Positions 1,328-62,127 of a stretch of DNA of 64,000 bases are shown piece after piece. The translations under genes and the position numbers were made by a program. Below the pieces are notes generated by a model. That model did no database searches. It was given only the letters and a program-made list of their open reading frames with translations, and was not told where the DNA came from. Source of the DNA: Ziziphus jujuba. Lineage: Eukaryota; Streptophyta; Magnoliopsida; Rosales; Rhamnaceae. Position 1 is the stretch's first letter; each line of letters opens with the position of its first letter. The stretch covers positions 5,902,501-5,966,500 of the forward strand of contig NC_083381.1 of the NCBI RefSeq assembly GCF_031755915.1, given 5' to 3'.

Positions 1328-1690
1328 TCACCTATCATCCATTACAGCTATATCTTTGCACAACTTCAACTTTTTTAGTGTGACAATTTTTGTAAACATA
1401 TCTGCTGAATTCTCCTTTATGTGAATATTCACCAATTTGAGTAGTTTGTAATCCGTGACATTGCATATCCAATAATTATGAATATCAATGTACTTTGATT
1501 GATAATGATATATTGAGTTCTTTCTCAAATCCACGTCATTTCGGCTGTCATAATGTATTTTGTAGTCTTTATGTTTGATGCCCAATTTATTAAATAACCA
1601 CTTTAGCCATATGGCTTCTACTATGGCAATGTACTTAGTTTTTGTCATAGATAAAACTACACACCTCCGTAATTTTGATTGCCATGACAT
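1328..1690 (-). pseudogene. Copia-1 RNase H / polyprotein C-terminus
   Basis: A 120-codon frame matching the end of Copia polyproteins. It reads VSWQSKLQ..-like MSWQSKLRRCVVLSMTKTKY, then a decayed AEYIA-type segment (KTKYIAIVEAIWLKWL), then the conserved tail with VNIHIKENSADMFTK. Family members normally have STTEAEY at the first block and 'KIADIFTK' at the end, so the signature is clear but eroded. The homologous segment of the second element (51399-51605 and 51678-51890) confirms the identification. Confidence 0.85.
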
Positions 1691-1762
1691 AGGTCATCTA
1701 GCAAAAGTGTACAAATAATCTAAAATTGAGTTTATACTATCAAGGATCTCCAGCTATATCTA

Positions 1763-2435
1763 GACCTGGCAATTTGGATCATGACACGGCGACACGACTC
1801 GAAAACGACACGGAATAAATGGGTTTGGGTTTATTATAAATGGGTTCGGGTCATAATCGGGTCAACCCGTTTAATACGATTATTAATCGTGTCATTTTCG
1901 GGTTGACCTGTTTAACTCGAAATTGACCCGTTACGACCCATTTATTAAACGTGTCAGTTTCAACCCGACATGATTATATACCTATTACAACCCATTTAAA
2001 TTTAATTTTAAATTAATATTTTATCACTAATATAATATTTAATAACTAAAAAATATTATAAATTAAAAATTTTATAAAAATAATTTTCTATTACTAATTT
2101 TTTAAAAACAAAAAATACATCTTTAATAAAACAAAAACATAAAAATAAAAAAAAAATTCGGGTTAATAGGTTAATTTTCGGGTTAACGGGTTAATAGGTT
2201 AGTTTTCGGGTTAATAGGTCAATTTCAGGTTAACGGGTTAATAGGTCAACACAACCCGTTAAAATAATCGTGTTAAACGGGTCGTGTCGTGTTGACCTGT
2301 TTATAAACAGGTCGGGTTAGTGTTTTAGGTACCTGACACGATTAATAAATGAGTCGTGTTCGGGTTAGGCATTTTTGACACGATTATTAAACGGGTTGAC
2401 ACGAACACGACCCACCAACCCGAATTGCCAGGTAT
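1763..2435. mobile_element. Long-TIR MITE (MULE-like) inserted in Copia-1, 11-bp TSD
   Basis: The 673-bp insert begins GACCTGGCAATTT and ends AATTGCCAGGTAT, giving inverted ends around ACCTGGCAATT. The body is made of repeated blocks such as CGGGTTAACGGGTTAATAGG and GACACGACCCG in inverted arrangement, so the whole unit is nearly fold-back. The sequence AGCTATATCTA flanks it exactly on both sides (1752-1762 and 2436-2446). Removing the insert plus one copy restores the Copia minus-strand frame 'GYTNVDIAGDP', so the boundaries are firm. TSD length and long TIRs suggest a Mutator-like MITE; no coding capacity is seen. Confidence 0.85.
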
Positions 2436-40139: not shown

Positions 40140-40148
40140 TTTAGTTTA
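40140..40148. repeat. Left 9-bp target-site duplication of the Pack-MULE
   Basis: TTTAGTTTA directly precedes the left TIR and is repeated exactly at 48724-48732 after the right TIR. Confidence 0.92.
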
Positions 40149-40230
40149 GGGGAATTTGGCCCAATACCCCCATAGGACCGAGCTTCATGAATTTTGCCCC
40201 CTCAATTCATTTCTTTTTTGATCTACCCCT
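40149..40230 (+). repeat. Pack-MULE left TIR (82 bp)
   Basis: Exact inverted copy of 48642-48723. It ends TTTTTTGATCTACCCCT, and similarity stops abruptly afterwards. Confidence 0.95.
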
Positions 40231-40452
40231 TAATATCCCTTATAACCCTCAAACAAAAAACAATTACTTACATATCCTTTTATTTATTTTAAAATATATA
40301 TAAAAAAAAAACACTTGGTGAGCGCAAAAACCCATGGCGTGAGAACCAGAGGCCGTATCATCGAGACCATTTTGTGGAGATCGCGGCTTTTCAGTCAGCC
40401 GCCGGCGCGGTACTGTGTGATCTAGCGCAGAGAAAGTTGAAGATTGAAGAAG

Positions 40453-42420
40453 ATGGCATGGAGGCAAATGCTCTTCAAGGGGAGCCCAATTTCTCAACCC
40501 CTTTCACCAACTGGGTTCGCTAGATTCTTCTCCAAGCCATCCCCTTATGCAGGTTAGTGATTTTTTTGTCCTGGGTTTAGTAACCCATAAAAAGATTTTC
40601 TTACTTTCTGTTGGGTTCCCAGAGCAAGAAAAGAGAATTGATAAAGAAGAAAATTTTTCTGGGTTCTTGTGAATTTTGTGATTTGAACTTTGTAAAAAAA
40701 TTGTCGATAGAAAGAGAGATCCAAGTACCTGTTTTTGGCTGCTGAGTTAGAATCGAAATGGGTAAAATTGAATTTTATGTGTAAATCCAGGATTTACAGA
40801 GTGAGAAACTTGGCTGGTATTGAAGTTAATAGATTCACAGATAGGAAACATAGAGGAAAAAATGATGAATAAGGTTGATTATGCTTAGTTTCCCGCATTG
40901 TTTGGTTGGTGAGAAAGATGGGGAATAAAGGAAAAGGAAATATTGGTTTATAATTTATTTATCATTATTTGAGAAACTTATCTATACCAAGCTGATTACT
41001 GAATGCTGAATAACTCTTTAAGTTGGAAAAAGAAACATGGTTTTTGTTTCAACGTTATTATAGCATTGAAAAACCGTGTTCACTCTTGTTTGGTTGCTAA
41101 ATGACTGATAAAGATGAAGAAAAGCAGAATTTGATGTTCTCTGTTTTGGTGATTTTACTTTTAGTGACTGGGAATTAATCCTACAAATCATGTTTTATGT
41201 TGGCTCAAGTGAGCAAGATTCATGCTTCCTGATGAGTGATGTACTTGAGCATGAAAGTTTATATGAAATAAAATTTGTTAGAATTAGATTAGATTACTGT
41301 GAAAGTGTTATAGTCAGTAGGAGATCTAAAGTTGTTGCTTTTGTTGCAGTGAAAGTTGGAATTCCAGAATTTTTAAATGGAATAGGCAAAGGGGTGGAAT
41401 CCTATGCGGCTAAGCTTGAAACCGAGGTGGGCGACTTCCAGAAACTGCTTGTCACTCGGACGCTCAGGCTGAAGAAACTTGGCATCCCTTGCAAACAGGT
41501 ATTTCCTAAATCTTTATCTACTATATATGCACATACTTGAAGCCCTCTGCCTTTTGGGTATATTATAATTCTTTCAGTATATCCGTCAATACATCTGATA
41601 GTATTGCAGATCAGAAAATTTGGTTATAGATTGCTTGCTTAAATCTAAGTGAAAGATTTCATGAAAATTAGGGTGATTAATTTATGTTTATGGTTTTTTA
41701 AACTCTTCTAACGAAGAAAGTTTAGGGATGCTTAAAGGAAACTCTGACTATCCGGGAATGGTTAATTTATCTTTTAGTTTGGCAATGGTACTGCAACTTG
41801 AAATCACCCTAGTTCTGGAGTTTTGTTCTTTGTTCTGTTCCAATGGTTGCAAATATTTTTGTTTTACTGGGCAAAAGTGAAAATGTTTCAGGAAGACAGC
41901 ATGCAGAATTGCTTTGAGAGCTGTCATTTATATCATACTGGTAGAAAGAAAAGATGTTATTTAACGAAAATGTTTACCAAAATTGAAATGCAGTGCCGGA
42001 GTATGTGTTGCTTTATATTTGGTAATGATATAAACTTTCTAAATACTGACTCAAATGAGTTTAGGCTTCTTCCCTAAGTGATGTAATATTTTCTTGTCTT
42101 GTTGTACTGACTTTTGCTTCTGAAATACTGTAGGCCTTGTCTTCTTCTTCATTTCTCTATCTAAGAAGAAAGAGTTAAAAGTAGTGCATATATTTTTTGT
42201 TCTGCTACTTGTTAAATTTGTTGGTGAAAGGCGTAATGAAAGTTGCGGTTTTCTTTAGGATTAAGTTCTTTGGGACTTAGCTTCATTTGATGGTTTGAAG
42301 AGATTAGATTACTTATATCTGAATATGATTTTTGTTTTTCAGAGGAAGTTGATATTGACACACGCCCACAAGTATAGGCTGGGACTATGGAGGCCTCGAG
42401 CGGTACCAATGAAATCCTAA
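40453..42420 (+). CDS. mS41: Mitochondrial small ribosomal subunit protein mS41 (IGR motif), three exons, apparently intact
   Basis: Exons 40453-40552, 41350-41498 and 42343-42420 join at GT...AG borders with matching phases (1, then 0) into a 108-aa protein. Residues 1-33 (MAWRQMLFKGSPISQP..., then ARFFSKPSPYA) look like an Arg- and Ser-rich mitochondrial presequence. Residues 34-108 form the IGR/mS41 domain with GIPEFLNGIGKGVESYAAKL, then KLLVTRTLRLKKLGIPCKQ and RKLILTHAHKYRLGLWRPR. The family (yeast Fyv4, human mS41) is a mitoribosomal small-subunit component, and about 100 residues is its normal plant length. No stop, frameshift or lost splice site is seen. The ATG lies 222 bp inside the left TIR, with a GC-rich 5' UTR-like segment (40320-40452). 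It could be a captured copy or the only copy; this window cannot tell. Confidence 0.85.
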
Positions 42421-44060
42421 CTAGTTTAGGACTAGCTTGCTTATTGAGAATGTATCAAATGTCACATTACAGGTGGAACTATGCAGGTTTTACTTTTGTT
42501 TCTTAGTAAAGATGTCATTGCAGAGTGATGTAGGAAACATGCAGAATTTGATGTCATCTGGTGTTCAACGTTCACAATGCCTTGATAAGCCCATTATCAT
42601 TGTGAAGTTTCGAATTATTTTGATATCCTTCTGGTTCAAATTAATTTGTTTAATTATCAACTTTATCCCGGATAACCAAATAATAGGATAAATGAGTTTT
42701 AATTAGTTCAACTTAGTTTAAAAAACAAGTAAGAAGTTGAATTAGTAATGAATATTCATCCAACAATAATGTTTACAGTAGTAGCAGAGGCATAGACTAT
42801 GCAATAGAATTCTCCGTTATTGTATTCTGCTGTTTCTGCTACATGAAGAAATAGCTCTTTAAAAACTCGTTACAACCTCAAACTTGGTACTCTGTTCTGT
42901 AAGCCAAATTCAGCTCTCACTGTTTGTGTCTCGAAACATAATACTCATCTAAATGGTAGTCGAACTCGAGACCTTATGTCTAAGATAAATGGAAGAATTC
43001 AGAGCTCCTTATCATGCTCAAAGCCAAACAAGTTGCTTTCATCTATAAAATAAAAGCGAAAATCATATAGTAAACTAAGAAGCAACATAGGCATAGTATC
43101 TTCAAACTTAATCGGCCTCAAAACTCCAACTGAATGGAGTTGGTTGAATACACAATTGGTTTTAAAGACTGCCATAATGCCAGTGACAACTGATGTACAT
43201 GCTTGGAGTCTTAGGCACTTCAACATTCTCATCATATCTTCTGATGTATACAAATTCTACAATGGACCCAATAGAGGTACCTATAAGATAAAACATAAGG
43301 TAACTTCTGGTTAGAACTCACAAAATCCATGTTAGCAATAGCTGCAGACAGTTTATATGAGAACTCGACCGGTATAGAGAAAACATACGTGGGTAGAGAG
43401 GAGCAAGGTCCAGATGGGTTGTTATGGGTACAAAACTTGCTTCATGCCATCGAAAACCACTACATTGCTCCCTGGTTTGTAGTTCGTTTACACTGCAATC
43501 ACATCTGGAGCAAGTTCCTGAATTCATAAAAAGCCTATTACAATGTATCGTGTAGTCACAAAGATTATAACATGAAAACTATTCTCAAGCTTGCGAACAA
43601 AAAACATAGGAGAAAGTACTTGAAATAGGTCATACTCATGAACAGATACACAAAAGGATGACAGAACATTTGGTTGCTAATTCATGCCTGCCAGTGCTAC
43701 GTGTGGTGACAATATGTATGAGATTGGTTCCCCATACAGCCTGATCGAAAGATGAATTCATATTGCCCACTGGAGTAATTATAAAAGAATACAACAAAAA
43801 TAAAGGAAAAAGATCGATGGGAAAATCGTACATGAATCCATATGGTTTTACAATTTTGAAGATGAACACAGGAAACTGCATCACATCATACACGAGAACC
43901 CAAGATACCTGAAAGTTAGAAAACAAATATACCAATACAGTTATCTTCACCTTGTAAAGTTACCCTAAAACAAGAGACATAACCCCAATAAGCAGAGGTA
44001 TCTTTACCTTGTAAAATTATCACAAAGCAGAAGATAATGGTAACAGCCATCGCAATCAGG
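42421..44060. other. Pack-MULE interior, unrecognised host-like sequence
   Basis: The first 250 bp are probably mS41 3' UTR and flank. Less AT-rich blocks at 42990-43260, 43310-43530 and 43670-43760 have intron-like AT-rich spacers and some GT/AG borders on the minus strand, as if exons of a captured gene were present. No frame in them gives a protein that I recognise. Confidence 0.4.
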
Positions 44061-44063
44061 TTG

Positions 44064-44373
44064 ATATTGGGTGATGATACACGTCACCTCCAATTGTAGC
44101 ACCAATAGTTGGCGCTAAAGATGTTAGAGCTAAAGATGCGTCCAAAGCTGGGGAGCATTCTAGTGGCCCTCTAGATTCTAATTTCAGGGTATGCAATTGT
44201 TACTTGCACGCAAATTTGTATTTCATATGTTGTACTAATATATGTTGACTTATGTTTTGGATATTGATATTGATTAGCTTGCTTGCTTGGAGGCAAAAGT
44301 TGATGAATTAAATAAAGAGATGGCAGCGTTAAGGAAGATGCTTAGTTCTGTTATTGACCAACAAAAGCATCAG
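44064..44373 (+). CDS. Two-exon reading frame with coiled coil inside the Pack-MULE
   Basis: Exon a (about 44064-44188) encodes PPIVAPIVGAKDVRAKDASK and ends at AGG before GTATGC. Exon b (44278-44373) encodes LACLEAKVDELNKEMAALRK then MLSSVIDQQKHQ before GTATCA. The 89-bp intron has GT and AG ends and the exons join in frame (phase 0). Exon b has a leucine heptad pattern. C-termini of this sort are seen in plant En/Spm (CACTA)-type transposon proteins, an impression I cannot test. The next intron would contain the 255-bp tandem array. The 5' limit is uncertain, and the frame is probably a captured or nested transposon fragment. Confidence 0.45.
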
Positions 44374-44451
44374 GTATCATTTAGACAACTTAGTATACTT
44401 TACTTTAGTGCTTCAGCATTATTAAATTACATATTGTAATTCAGCAATTAC

Positions 44452-46310
44452 AATTTTTCCAGAGGGCATTTGTAGTTTCCCGATAGTTTCGTCGGTAATT
44501 TCCCGAGGGTGAACAGTCATCAATTTTTTGCAAACTTTGATACACTTTTATGAACTTTTTTGATTTTCTCTCCTTAGTACAATTATACAATCCATGTTTT
44601 GCATGTTTTTTCATTCAACACACCTTAGGGGCCTTGTGGGGTAAAAAAAATTGGCAAAACAATACGTACTGTACATCCTCGGGAAATTACCGACGAAACT
44701 GTCGGTAATTTTTCCAGGGGGCATTTGTAGTTTCCCGACGGTTTCGTCGGTAATTTCCCGAGGGTGAACAGTCATCAATTTTTTGCAAACTTTGATACAC
44801 TTTTATGAAATTTTTTGATTTTCTCTCCTTAGTACAATTATAGAATCCATGTTTTGCATGTTTTTTCATTCAACACACCTTAGGGGCCTTGTGGGGTAAA
44901 AAAAATTGGCAAAACAATACGTACTGTACAACCTCGGGAAATTATCGACGAAACTGTCGGTAATTTTTCCAGGGGGCATTTGTAGTTTCCCGACAGTTTT
45001 GTCAGTAATTTCCCGAGGGTGAACAGTTAGCTTATTTTTTGCAAACTTTGATACACTTTTATGAAATTTTTTGATTTTCTCTCCTTAGTACAATTATAGA
45101 ATCCATGTTTAGCATGTTTTTTCATTCAACACACCTTAGGGGCCTTGTGGGGTAAACAAAATTGGCAAAAAAATACGTACTGTACATCCTCGGGAAATTA
45201 CCGACGAAACTGTCGGTAATTTTTCCAGGGGGCATTTGTAGTTTCCCGACGGTTTCGTCGGTAATTTCCCGAGGGTGAACAGTCATCAATTTTTTGCAAA
45301 CTTTGATACACTTTTATGAAATTTTTTGATTTTCTCTCCTTAGTACAATTATAGAATCCATGTTTTGCATGTTTTTTCATTCAACACACCTTAGGGGCCT
45401 TGTGGGGTAAAAAAAATTGGCAAAACAATACGTACTGTACAACCTCGGGAAATTACCGACGAAACTGTCGGTAATTTTTCCAGGGGGCATTTGTAGTTTC
45501 CCGACAGTTTCGTCAGTAATTTACCGAGGGTGAACAGTTAGCTTATTTTTTGCAAACTTTGATACACTTTTATGAAATTTTTTTATTTTCTCTCCTTAGT
45601 ACAATTATAGAATCCATGTTTTGCATGCTTTTTCATTCAACACACCTTAGGGGCCTTGTGGGGTAAAAAAAATTGGCAAAATAATACGTACTGTACACCC
45701 TCGGGAAATTACCGACGAAACTGTCGGTAATTTTCCCAGAGGGCATTTGTAGTTGCCCGACAGTTTCGTCAGTAATTTACCGAGGGTGAACAGTTAGCTT
45801 ATTTTTTGCAAACTTTGATACACTTTTATCAAATTTTGGGATTTTATCTCCTTAGTACAATTATAGAATCCATGTTTTGCATGTTTTTTCATTCAACACA
45901 CCTTAGGGGCCTTGTGGGGTCCAAAAAATTGGCAAAATATGCCGCACTGTACACCCTCGGGAATTACCGACGAAACTGTCGGTAATTTTTCCAGAGGGCA
46001 TTCGTAGTTTCCCGACGATTTCGTCGGGAATTACCGAGGGTGAACAGTATACTTATTTTTTTGCAAACTTTGATACACTTTTATGAAATTTTATGATTTT
46101 CTCTCCTTAGTACAATTATAGAATCCATGTTTTGCATGTTTTTTCATTCAACACACATTAGGGGCCTTGTGGGGTCCAAAAAATTGGCAAAATATGCCGT
46201 ACTGTACACCATCGGGAATTACCGACGAAACTGTCGGTAATTTTTCCAGAGGGTATTTGTAGTTTACCGAAGATTTCCTCGGGAATTACCGATGGTGAAC
46301 AGTTATTGAC
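44452..46310 (+). repeat. ~255-bp tandem array, seven full units plus a partial one
   Basis: The marker GCATTTGTAG (with variants) recurs at 44466, 44721, 44976, 45232, 45487, 45743, 45998 and 46253, a spacing of 255 or 256 bp. Around each join is a long inverted repeat, CCTCGGGAAATTACCGACGA ... and its complement TCGTCGGTAATTTCCCGAGG, about 29 bp per arm with a spacer of about 25 bp. Units 2 and 4 are nearly identical over 183 bp (44687-44869 versus 45198-45380), and units 2+3 resemble 4+5, so a 511-bp dimer has been duplicated. The 60-codon minus-strand ORF in the units is incidental. Confidence 0.95.
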
Positions 46311-46826
46311 AAGAGAATCATGTACAAAAACTAAAAACAAAATCTGAATATGGAAGAAATTGGATCCTTTCACAAATATGGAAGTTTCCTTTTTTTTTTT
46401 TTTTCTTTTTTGTTTATTACATTTTGGTATCTTTTTTTCTACAAAAATCCAGCTGAACACAACTCTATAATTCCTATGTTCCAAGATTATGTATAAGATT
46501 CGAAACATATTGGATACAAAGTCCTACAAGGTAGCAGACATGGCAAGACTTTGCTGGCATACCTCATGCTGAACCAGAATCCTGATATCCCAAACAAAAA
46601 TATATAAAAGAAAGAAAAAATTTGTGAAAAATTAAGTGAAAATTCAAACTCCAATGCCTGTTATCAACTGGCCCAGCGTGAAGGATTCTTTTCACATATA
46701 CCAGGTTAGGCCATCTGCCTCTGTGCTAATAAGCCTTTGCAATTCAAATTTTTTTATGATGCTGAAGAATGATGCCTAAAATTCACACAGCAGCATGCAT
46801 CTCTAGCCATCTTTGTGCTAAGATTT

Positions 46827-48247
46827 TCAAATTTGTTCAGAATGCTTTGAAGCAACCTGTGTGTCCACTGTTCTTGTGTCATGCTTTCTCTTGCTTCGTC
46901 TCTTTGTAGGATGCTTTACAGCATGCTCTTGGATGCCCAACACTACATTTTCATTGGTAGGGAGTTCAGGAGGGGCATCAGGCCATGGTGTGCGTTTTGA
47001 TGGTACATTGACCTCCAGAGGAGGATCAATTATCCATCTGTAAAGAGACCACACTAATGTCAAATGCATGTGCATAGGAAGAGATTCTGCTAAATGAATT
47101 TTAATTAAATAGGCAATTGACTGTCATGATTTTTGTGTGTCAATGATATATATTGAAATTTAGATGGCTTGATGAGGGGTGGGGGGAAAAAAAGCATTTC
47201 CATATGACAAAATTATTGACTAAAGATAAACATTTGCTGAACCAAAGTAAAATAAAAAGAAGCATGCTACATAAAATCATAGTACAATTATATAAGTCAA
47301 TTGTTTAAAGGATTGTAGTCAAATTGCAAGTAAGAAAGCCCTTGGGAATGAGGTCAGAGGACTGAACAGAAATACATTGAAATGCCACACCAATACCACT
47401 TGACCACTTGAAACAATGCAATGACATTCACTTGAAAAGAGAAGTTGAGCATCATTGTCACATTCACAGGTAGGTTACTAATTTTAAGTTCTACCCATGT
47501 GTGATATTCAAAATCACAATTTCACAGCCACAATTTTATGCTTTGAAAATAAATTAGAGACGCATAGTACTTAGAAATTGAAGGATATAACAGCAGAAAG
47601 TTTAACATGACAAGATTATTACAAAACATTTCTACCAATTGTATATGATCATTGGCACTGTTGACTCCATCTATGCTTCAAATTTTTTAAACAACCATGA
47701 CAGCTTTCAGAATGCAAAAACCATATGCACTATAAAATGGAAAATGGATTGGAGACACAATAGGAAAGAAGATATGGTACCTGTAGGGCCAAACCATAAC
47801 CGCCATTCACATCTTGCTCGAAATAAAGTAACTGGAAAATAAAGCAATTAGATTATAAATTTAATGTCACACCAGCAACACAAAAGAAAATGCAGATGCA
47901 GAGAGAGAGAGAGAGAGAGTTCATAGTCATCAAACATGGTATATAAACAATTTAAATGCAAAAATATGAAATATACATACCTTAAATTTGCTTTGTGCAT
48001 TTGAAGTAACTCTTTCTACAATACCACACTCGGCTTGTTGCTTGTTGATCGTAACACCAAAGAAATGAGCATTTTGCTTATCCACCTGCAACAAAACAAA
48101 ATCAACCAAACGGAAAATTCCAGAAAGAATGAAAGTCCATGATAACAAACATGAAAGCACCTTTCCACTAACTGATGACAGAATGGAATGTATCCCTACT
48201 TGGCTGTACTCCATCCAGCATCATATCATCATACATATCTCTCAGCA
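46827..48247 (-). pseudogene. Minus-strand gene patchwork in the Pack-MULE (PPR-like piece and unknown exons)
   Basis: From the right end inward, 48247-48160 reads RHFLLRDMYDDMMLDGVQPS then RDTFHSVIS-stop-WKGA, resembling a pentatricopeptide repeat (family: FHSLI.GTMKGA) with one in-frame TAG. Exon-like 48085-47981 (VDKQNAHFFGVTINKQQAEC..., then VTSNAQSKFK) and 47831-47781 (LLYFEQDVNGGYGLALQ) have GT...AG borders and join in phase 0. A last block, 47037-46827, is open in the frame WIIDPPLEVNVPSKRTPWPD but does not join the previous exon in phase (MDN-stop results). I do not recognise the later exons. A GC-rich 5' UTR-like segment at 48400-48560 faces inward from the right TIR. Confidence 0.45.
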
Positions 48248-48641
48248 AGAAATGCCTACCACCACCGTTATTTAAAAAAAAAAAAAAAAACCAGAACACA
48301 ACTTTCACAATTTCTCTTTCACAATTTCTCCCAAAAAAAAAAAATTCCCAACACCACTAACAGAAAATCAAAATTAGAGCTGTTGCCTACTTGTTGCTTC
48401 TGCTTCTGCTCCTAGGGCTCTCTAAAATCCTGCAGTTTTCTCTCTGAGTCGCCTCTTCACCATCTCCTTCAAAACGCGCAGTCTCCACGCTTACAATCCG
48501 GCCGATTCATGAAAGGAAACAGAGGGCTCCTAAGGTCTGGTTATGGATAAAGAGATGGAGGGGAAAAGTCGAAGAAAGGAAAGAAAAAAACATATAAAAA
48601 AAAAAAACACATAAGGGTATTTTGGGATTTTAAAAGATTGG

Positions 48642-48723
48642 AGGGGTAGATCAAAAAAGAAATGAATTGAGGGGGCAAAATTCATGAAGCTCGGTCCTAT
48701 GGGGGTATTGGGCCAAATTCCCC
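48642..48723 (-). repeat. Pack-MULE right TIR (82 bp)
   Basis: Exact inverted copy of 40149-40230, beginning AGGGGTAGATCAAAAAAG and ending CCAAATTCCCC. Confidence 0.95.
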
Positions 48724-48732
48724 TTTAGTTTA
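48724..48732. repeat. Right 9-bp target-site duplication of the Pack-MULE
   Basis: TTTAGTTTA, identical to 40140-40148. Confidence 0.92.
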
Positions 48733-59572: not shown

Positions 59573-61316
59573 CTACATTATGCTACATGCACTATTAGCG
59601 GTAATCTCAACAATGAATTTTGCAATACCTAATCCCATCACAACGGCTTCATTTGCTCCCTCCCTTTTGTTCTGAAAACAACATGCAGCCAGAGAGCCGA
59701 TAAAAAAGTCATGTATCAACAATCAATCATGCAACCTTGACTTAATATTAACATTCACAATTTTATTTAAGTTATTGCATTAATATTGATTCTCATTGAT
59801 TTATTAACTATCACATCCCTCATAGGTTATGCCATATTACATCTATGTATATAAGTTTTGGATTTTAGCCAGGCTCGGACCTTAAATTTAAATCTATCAT
59901 CCTAACGGGTTTTATATTAATATTTTTTTTACTATTATATTAATATATGATTATTTTTTATTTTGTCTAGGATATATGTAGGATGCATATCAATATAGAA
60001 TTTAAAGAATTTTAAAATTTTTTGAAAGTTTAAAAGTATTCGATTTAAATTTTAAAAGAATCTATACAAGTCTAATAATATTTAGTTAAGATATTAATAG
60101 ATTTTATAAAAATTCATTAAAATTCAATTAGAATTTTATAAAATTATTTTAAATCCGAATTGCACTTTTACCACTATACTATACTTACTCCAATTCAATT
60201 ATTGTATATAAATGGACTTTTTGTCGGACAAAAAATTCGGCGAGATTGAAAGATACAATCAGAAAAATGCATTGTGCACAAATCCATAATTCTATTTTTT
60301 TATTATATGCATATTTTTATTATTTTTTTATTTCATTTAAATATCAATAAACAAAAAAATAATTCAAAAAGTCACTAATTTTGAAAGAATTTAAAAAATT
60401 ATAGATTTTAATAGATTTAAAAAGATTTTAAAATTGAAATTGTAAAATTATATATATCAATATTAAATCCAGCATGAATATTAGAGATTTCGTTGGATTC
60501 TTATAAATTAGTTTATTAAATTCCATAATAAACCTATAAGACTTTTAAAATCTAAATTTATTAAATTCTAAATTAAATACATCCCTGTAATTTAGTTTTT
60601 ATATGTTAAATTAAAGCTTATTATTATTTTTATTAAGTTTAACATTTTGTAATACTTTTATGCGCATTCCTTACTATTATTTTTTTGTTATATTAAATTT
60701 CTATATAACATTTATCTATCAGAAAAATAACTACTATTTTAAAAAATTACAATGGCAAAATTAAGAACCTGGTAGTCAAGTTATCAAACAAGCACTTAAA
60801 TAAATAATTAATTAAATAAATGAAATTAATCAGATATTAATCATGTCAAAATGCTCTTACGCTGTATCCTTTGGCCATAAAATGCAGCAAGGCAAAATTA
60901 TCCAGAAAAATAGCATGGTTATGGAGAAAATTCTTGCCGCTGAAGCAGGAAGGGCAGAGATCGAAATTCTTTTCGCATTGGAAACAGTGAACACAAGTGA
61001 AGTAGAATCCTTTGAGAAAAGCTCCACATCCATGGCCGTCGCAGAAGAGCAGCCTCTCACTTTTAATAAGATAGTATAAGCTTAGAAACTCTTCGAAATC
61101 CAGATTTCCATCTCCGTCTCTGTCAAGCTTCTTGAAGAAATTCGGGTTGCTACACAATTTATAGCCCTTCTTTGACAATATCTCAAGGTACTCACTCAGG
61201 CTTAGACTCCCATCTTCATTCGAATCCATTGATTGGAACATTTGTTTAGCACTATCCTTTTGGCTTTCTGTTAGATTGTTGTAATAAGCTTTTGCAGTTT
61301 CATGAATTTCCTCCAT
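59573..61316 (-). CDS. EF-hand and Cys/His zinc-binding protein with CaaX box, two exons
   Basis: Exon 1 (61316-60861, 152 codons) and exon 2 (59671-59573, 32 codons plus stop) join at AGC|GTAAGA ... TTTTCAG|AAC in phase 0, giving 184 aa. Residues about 1-25 are helical (MEEIHETAKAYYNNLTESQK). EF-hand 1 has loop DSNEDGSLSLSE and EF-hand 2 DRDGDGNLDFEE, both with full Ca-binding ligands. A Cys/His region follows (FCDGHGCGAF, FTCVHCFQCEKNFDLCPSC, HNHAIFLDN), resembling a ZZ/DC1-type zinc site. The C-terminus is ...NSACSIM, a CaaX box suggesting farnesylation and membrane attachment. A plant family with this layout ends similarly. The first ATG follows a pyrimidine-rich leader at 61317-61350. 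If the intron were retained, the protein would end VRAF at 156 aa without the CaaX box. Confidence 0.85.
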
Positions 61317-62127
61317 GGAGATCTCTCTTTTCTCTTTCTCTTCCTCACTTTAATTTCCTTTATATAGTCTGTGAATAAGAATTATTAAGTACAATTTTGA
61401 TGAATTCTACAATGATAAATTATTATATAGTGATTAGATATTAACACGGCATAATTCATGATGTAAAACACTCAATTGACTTTGTCATGAGCACCAGCTC
61501 GTATTGAATTGACCGAATATTAATTTGTTTCCTATATGTGTATTGAGATTAAACTAATGATACAAATAGTATATGAGTCGGCTATTAATTGTATTATATA
61601 ATTGTATTTTTGGACCAATTAATTCACCATGCCATTGTCGTTTCCCCTTTTACCATTCTCTGCGACAATACATTATGATTATTTTTTTCGAAGCTTATAC
61701 TGTTTCAAAACAGATTAATTAAACTAGTTGGTGGACCAAGAAAAGCTAAACTAGTTCCAAAAACTTAAATATATATATATATATATATGTAAATACTGAT
61801 TCAAAAAAAAAATTAATAACATAATAAATAACAAGCTAAACTAACTGTGAGGATAATTTCTTTCGTTTTTTTTTTTTTTTTTTTTCTCTTTTGACAAAGC
61901 TAACTGTGTGGATAATTTCCTTTTTCTTTCTTTTCTTTTTTTTTTTTTGGGACAAAGAAAGTGTAAAGAAAAGAAAACACAAATTACTAGTTGATTTTTA
62001 TTTTGACAATTCCTTTTCTTACTTTTTTTGTTTTTGGGAATAGATTAGAGAACACTTTTTATAATTAAAACTCATTAGAGAGAGAGAGGATTGTTGATAA
62101 AACGAAATTGAAGTCAAAACCTGGTAC

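Follow-up and report, generated by a model that had tools for sequence, protein, structure and literature searches.

Pack-MULEs, the Mutator-like elements (MULEs) that hold host DNA between their ends, usually capture fragments, with a reported median of 305 bp (PMC8277862). Here we describe an 8.6-kb element at positions 40149-48723 of a 64,000-nucleotide stretch of Ziziphus jujuba (jujube) contig NC_083381.1, which we call the window. In this element, a three-exon gene for the mitoribosomal protein mS41 is flanked by terminal inverted repeats (TIRs) and target-site duplications (TSDs). It resembles the Pack-MULEs of rice and other plants, as portrayed in parts of two reports (PMC13317346, PMC8277862), in having TIRs, a TSD and captured host DNA, and in having become multicopy by transposition. 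Unlike the usual Pack-MULEs of these sources, the jujube element has a cargo of 3.78 kb with a whole gene, occurs in 16 copies with mostly open frames and has given rise to a two-gene derivative. We consider it very probable that it represents a young, multicopy, non-autonomous Pack-MULE that carries whole genes and is probably silenced.

The nearest parallel in the literature examined is the Ssk-FB4 Pack-MULE of Drosophila (PMC8277862), in which a MULE-like element took up a nearly whole, intron-containing gene and carried it by transposition to several sites. The Ssk-FB4 copies are described as few, polymorphic, expressed and apparently functional, in contrast to the 16 jujube copies, whose decay appears neutral and methylation-like. 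Amplification of histone H3 by a fungal hAT element, as outlined in PMC6710886, is similar in that a DNA transposon multiplied a housekeeping gene whose original survived. However, the fungal element belongs to another superfamily and inactivation was by repeat-induced point mutation (RIP), whereas the jujube decay consists of C-to-T changes in CG and CHG contexts.

The family from which the element derives, hereafter the parental family, resembles the KAONASHI and KIU Ulp1-carrying MULEs, going by the sections of PMC13317346 and PMC2528002 that describe them: the parental element that we read has an Ulp1 C48 domain together with DUF1985. In contrast to the Arabidopsis KI-MULEs, characterized there as non-TIR, the jujube family has 82-bp TIRs, and the window copy has neither Ulp1 nor DUF1985. 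Because of these TIRs, we refer to the parental family as Ulp1-carrying and not as KAONASHI; TIR types of Ulp1-carrying MULEs are also noted in grape and melon in the same portion of PMC2528002. No report of the present jujube case was found in a literature search that had most subscription journals outside its reach.

Structure and transposition of the element

The layout of the element is given below in window positions. The captured block is compared with a separate mS41 locus on C10.

40140..40148: left TSD, TTTAGTTTA, a perfect 9-bp match to the right TSD
40149..40230, plus strand: left TIR, 82 bp, identical to the right TIR at 82 of 82 bases
40149..40294, plus strand: left end common to elements without adjacent mS41, 146 bp
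40302..44080, plus strand: captured block, 92-96% identical to and co-linear with the C10 mS41 locus
40453..40552, plus strand: mS41 exon 1, including the start codon
41350..41498, plus strand: mS41 exon 2, with H52Y in the window copy
42343..42420, plus strand: mS41 exon 3, including the stop codon
44078..44450, plus strand: remnant of the parental MULE interior; TAC (3 bp) overlaps the captured block at the junction
44452..46305: tandem repeat, 7.3 copies of a 255-bp unit, common to the parental family
46306..48641: right arm of the parental MULE family
48642..48723, minus strand: right TIR, 82 bp, identical to the left TIR at 82 of 82 bases
48724..48732: right TSD, TTTAGTTTA, matching the left TSD

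A preliminary description of this DNA, made from its letters alone, had reported identical 82-bp TIRs, a perfect 9-bp TSD, no transposase, and a gene with correct phases and no lesion. The TIRs and the TSD were as claimed, base for base; the TIR comparison reads 83 bp if one matching TSD base pair is included, the TIR proper being 82 bp. The claim of no transposase also stood, in that the element contained no stop-to-stop frame of at least 150 aa and Pfam recognised no transposase in the frames submitted to it, although a decayed or split one may lie outside those frames. The mS41 gene comprises 108 codons plus a stop on the plus strand, both introns are GT/AG, and its product matched SAM_Ribosomal_mS41 (E = 3.4e-19). 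Thus, the frame and splice sites were as described, but the gene is not free of change, since H52Y of the window copy affects a column without variation among the 18 aligned plant sequences.

We searched 394 Mb of the genome (14 contigs) and found 17 mS41 loci, 16 of them within the transposon and one on C10. The search with cargo DNA, in which all 17 candidates were scored, returned 15 full-length copies (the window copy and 14 others at 99%), a further copy on C4 that is truncated, and the C10 locus at 92-95%. The search with mS41 protein, which was the exon count proposed in the preliminary description (51 of 51 exon candidates scored), gave the same 17 loci, among which the one on C10 was without TIRs in the stretch read, and none further at E up to 0.1.

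TSDs, scored in whichever register of 9 or 10 bp fitted better and with one mismatch tolerated, matched in all 16 mS41 elements (13 perfectly, three with one mismatch), whereas under the same rule none of 240 wrong pairings of left and right flanks shared a TSD. The TSDs of C6_14.46 and C12_4.31 are weak when taken alone, because the former is a poly-T run and the latter is TA-rich. When a rigid 9-bp register was imposed on 10 elements, four were perfect and six were not. The TSDs of C12_6.29, C12_4.31 and C10_21.64 agreed in the 10-bp register. C2_9.03, C10_7.06 and C4_7.310 had no perfect TSD at their inner TIR; the 1417 bp common to them beyond this TIR indicate that they extend to an outer right end, where the TSD was found. 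In C4_7.289 and C4_7.310, letters of the right-end TIR were altered. The TIR/TSD structure is far beyond chance, and the 16 TSDs show that the chimera transposed to 16 sites. Chance flanking repeats were ruled out by these TSDs and by the separate C10 locus.

Thus, the element is Mutator-like in its long TIRs and in the 9-10-bp TSD at each insertion, and it is a Pack-MULE in that host DNA lies between MULE ends while a parental copy without TIRs in the stretch read is present elsewhere, on C10. Other places with the 82-bp TIR, which the preliminary description had proposed to look for, were also found: at least 39 matched the left end at 95-100% among the best 40 of 435 candidates, some of these being ends of the same elements.

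The C4_7.289 element (C4:7296770-7300016) differs from the others in its right part, which had no detected similarity to the window right arm. Its right TIR is degenerate and its TSD perfect, and its right half was perhaps swapped.

The parental MULE family and the presumed native mS41 gene

The C10 locus (C10:19951459-19955256) contains an intact mS41 gene in flanks unlike those of the window element, and no TIR was present within the 5.4 kb read. The protein that it encodes is identical to jujube entry LOC107406696 (P0002). Because of its intact gene, this identity and the lack of a TIR in the stretch read, we take the C10 locus as the native mS41 gene and the other 16 as transposon cargo. 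One of two alternatives offered in the preliminary description, that a whole nuclear mitoribosomal gene had been duplicated onto a mobile vehicle, is therefore borne out by the 16 copies and their individual TSDs.

The right arm of the element is repetitive: among the best 40 of 180 candidates, all were at least 96% identical (96-100%) and 37 were near full length, including that of the window. Among the best 40 of 245 candidates for the stretch 42700-44440, 14 places matched in full, again including that of the window, and 23 further matches began only at 44078. On the left, similarity to the window element stopped at 40294 in the stretches read of L003, L005, L006 and L007. The element of L003, read further as L047, has this left end as well, and its identity with the window element resumed at 44078. 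Since parental identity stops and resumes at these points while the C10 locus is co-linear over 40302-44080, the interior 40295-44078 has been replaced, and we placed the start of the cargo between 40295 and 40302. The captured stretch of 3.78 kb includes approximately 150 bp upstream of the gene, its three exons and two introns, and approximately 1.66 kb downstream.

In the one parental element examined (L047), DUF1985 (E = 2.8e-13) and an Ulp1 Peptidase_C48 domain (E = 1.7e-15) were recognised, the latter split over two frames. The window element keeps neither domain and has the mS41 stretch in their place. We therefore propose that the left interior of a DUF1985/Ulp1-encoding MULE was partly replaced by a copy of the mS41 locus. 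The C10 and parental sequences have TAC in common where the captured block ends on the right, and the left junction lies within an A-rich run. These features fit template switching during gap repair, by which the capture probably took place; the process is discussed for Pack-TIRs in part of PMC8277862. A MULE transposase acting in trans is the candidate for having moved the chimera to its 16 sites, in what would have been a young, star-like burst.

Two side observations concern these stretches. Reverse-strand frames occur in the downstream captured part (42421-44080) and may represent the end of a neighbouring gene; two were tested, and the reverse-strand frames tested here and in the right arm gave no Pfam match. 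A frame in L047 (positions 1644-2021, minus strand) matches a CCCH zinc finger weakly (E = 6e-4, just below the Pfam cut-off) and is perhaps another captured fragment.

A glycerol-3-phosphate transporter as second cargo

Beyond the inner right TIR of four mS41 elements (C2_9.03, C10_7.06, C4_7.310 and C6_14.46) lie approximately 2.8 kb containing a two-exon gene of the major facilitator superfamily (MFS). In C2 and C10, which were those compared, this gene is followed by approximately 372 bp of right end. The outer TIR ends the transporter-carrying elements, and the matching TSD adjoins it; for C2_9.03, the stretch concerned is C2:9043352-9046524. The product is 511 aa long and has jujube glycerol-3-phosphate transporter 5 as its closest match (99%). 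The frame is stopped in C2_9.03 and C4_7.310 and open in C10_7.06 and C6_14.46, so that the latter two elements carry two host genes each, with both frames open.

Genome-wide, 10 transporter copies were near full length (36 of 36 candidates scored): four in the mS41 elements, five without mS41 and one on C1. Three of the five without mS41 lie approximately 1.4 kb from listed right arms. The C1 copy is without a transposable element (TE) end, no TIR was found in the 801 upstream-side bases read, and we take it as the native gene.

Multiple-TIR MULEs of tomato, Arabidopsis, rice and maize, as presented in part of PMC3310237, are likewise mobile elements with a TSD and an additional internal TIR. 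That part of the report states no evidence of gene acquisition by tandem-TIR elements and marked mobility only with extra TIRs at both ends. In contrast, the jujube elements have a whole second gene between their inner and outer right ends, and with an extra TIR on one side they have transposed several times.

Age, decay and fate of the copies

The mS41 frame was open, with GT/AG introns, in 13 of the 16 TE copies. The broken copies are C12_4.31 (stop at codon 64), C5_2.13 (frameshift) and C4_7.310 (truncated, with a stop). Changes at invariant columns were also present in TE copies other than that of the window (D62N, R70W and similar). Between the TE consensus and the C10 gene there are four amino-acid and four silent coding differences; this synonymous excess (4/8) was not significant (p = 0.30). 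Among the plants aligned, the TE protein has the commonest state at sites 13 and 16, where the C10 protein deviates. Q83 differs from the usual H, yet it occurs in 4 of 16 other-species proteins aligned.

Variants of individual copies recur in public entries. Jujube entry LOC107403566 (P0001) matches the N38 and M79 pair of C6_9.37. Of two entries of var. spinosa, the partial P0005 corresponds to C2_9.03 in having N38 with I79, and P0027 corresponds to C5_2.13, a copy with a frameshift. From this agreement, at least some insertions seem to be shared with wild jujube. The three gene models look like transposon cargo, which is a warning for annotation.

To estimate the age of the burst, we compared 15 copies, excluding the truncated copy L045 from pairwise means and context counts and including it in coding counts. 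The copies differed from one another by 0.73% in the pairwise mean and from the C10 gene by 4.7%; few variants were common to copies, so the burst appears young and star-like. Outside CG and CHG sites, the mean distance of a copy to the consensus was 0.22%. Plants accumulate approximately 7e-9 substitutions per site and year, which would place the burst at about a few hundred thousand years ago.

We identified 27 distinct post-burst coding changes (14 amino-acid, 2 stop and 11 silent), not fewer than the 19.8 expected under neutrality. The silent share of 11/27 was similar to the 35% of a context-aware neutral expectation (p = 0.55), and purifying selection after the burst was unsupported. The changes thus appear to fit neutrality, as far as 27 variants can tell.

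C-to-T changes after the burst affected 24/114 CG, 46/242 CHG and 29/1004 CHH sites; of the 1380 bases of the downstream part, C6_14.46 contributed only the first 550 to these counts. On the TE side before the burst, as compared to C10, the counts were 8/106, 3/225 and 19/1000, and on the C10 side they were 11/112, 9/240 and 23/990. The CHG:CHH contrast distinguished the burst from the TE side (p = 7.7e-5) and from the C10 side (p = 0.003), but not the TE side from the C10 side (p = 0.32). A CHG excess is the trace left by methylated plant transposons, and the pattern suggests that the copies have been silenced and methylated since the burst. The pre-burst lineage looks free of CHG methylation, as would be expected either if the captured gene came from a diverged donor shortly before the burst or if the element was hypomethylated. 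As a side observation, CHG sites had changed somewhat more often on the C10 side (9/240) than on the TE side (3/225); the difference is not significant, and trans-silencing is possible.

We propose that after the burst the copies became methylated and have been decaying neutrally, as mutation context and synonymous share suggest; most frames would be open because the copies are young, and the C10 gene presumably still does the mS41 job. A "dead capture" is possible and is favoured by decay that appears neutral and methylation-like. The preliminary description had named another intact mS41 locus, together with splice junctions unsupported by RNA, as what would reduce the element to such a capture, and the intact locus exists on C10.

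Several points weigh against a silenced, non-autonomous Pack-MULE. The neutrality test has little power, silencing is read from mutation context alone, and the CG:CHH signature does not differ between the burst and the TE side (p = 0.23). The TE-consensus protein is unchanged in 5 of the 13 open copies. Finally, the search for an autonomous partner was negative: the genome is rich in MULE domains (at least 150 places among 1226 candidates), but none was linked to these TIRs, and none listed lay within approximately 60 kb of a listed TIR when the best 150 of the 1226 were compared by eye with TIR places from the best 40 of 435.

The alternative that survives best concerns the donor, which may have been a diverged haplotype, a paralog since lost or a related species and not the present C10 allele, most of the 4.7% divergence then being older than the capture. 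We give it a chance only slightly below even. The scarcity of CHG decay on the TE side before the burst relative to that after it would be explained, as would the commonest plant states at sites 13 and 16 in the TE protein. However, a mobile TE lineage that was hypomethylated before the burst would give the same pattern, the assembly yielded no mS41 locus outside the TE copies except that on C10, and the 141 differences between the TE consensus and the C10 gene are not polarised by outgroup DNA, with a CHG:CHH contrast between the two sides that is not significant.

It is rather unlikely that the MULE lineage acted as a vehicle for complete genes, having gathered mS41 and the glycerol-3-phosphate transporter, kept mS41 intact and unmethylated until the burst, and delivered usable copies, some of them expressed. 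Less likely again is that the TE-borne mS41 genes are expressed, adding functional dosage or a tissue-specific mitoribosomal protein, and that selection keeps their frames open. The 13 open frames, five with the consensus protein unchanged, the approximately 150 bp of upstream region from the C10 gene and the agreement of LOC107403566 with C6_9.37 speak for such expression. In contrast, the post-burst coding changes look as they would under neutrality, three copies are broken and others altered at invariant residues (H52Y, D62N, R70W), and CG/CHG decay points to silencing.

Segmental duplication or an assembly artefact could in principle produce the high identity of the copies, but this is very improbable: the 16 sites are distinct and each has its own 9-10-bp TSD beside the TIRs, copy-specific variants recur in entries that seem to derive from a second jujube assembly and from var. 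spinosa, and past the TIRs the loci read share only the transporter unit (four copies), which itself ends in its own TIR. The second alternative of the preliminary description, an essential gene enclosed in place by chance TIRs, is the least probable and must be given up, as nothing spoke for it after the genome search, the intact mS41 gene on C10 differs in its flanks and showed no TIR in the stretch read, and there is no sign that this gene is the derived copy.

Pack-MULEs have usually been set aside as carriers of scraps, and the jujube case differs: one genome holds the native mS41 gene and 16 whole or nearly whole mobile copies, most of them open, together with a two-gene derivative. This set offers a natural test of the fate of whole captured genes, including their expression before silencing and the speed of methylation, and it also allows one to ask whether small RNAs from the copies reach the native mitoribosomal gene.

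Elsewhere in the window, positions 60846-61349 on the minus strand contain an open frame of 167 aa that is EF-hand-like by eye.

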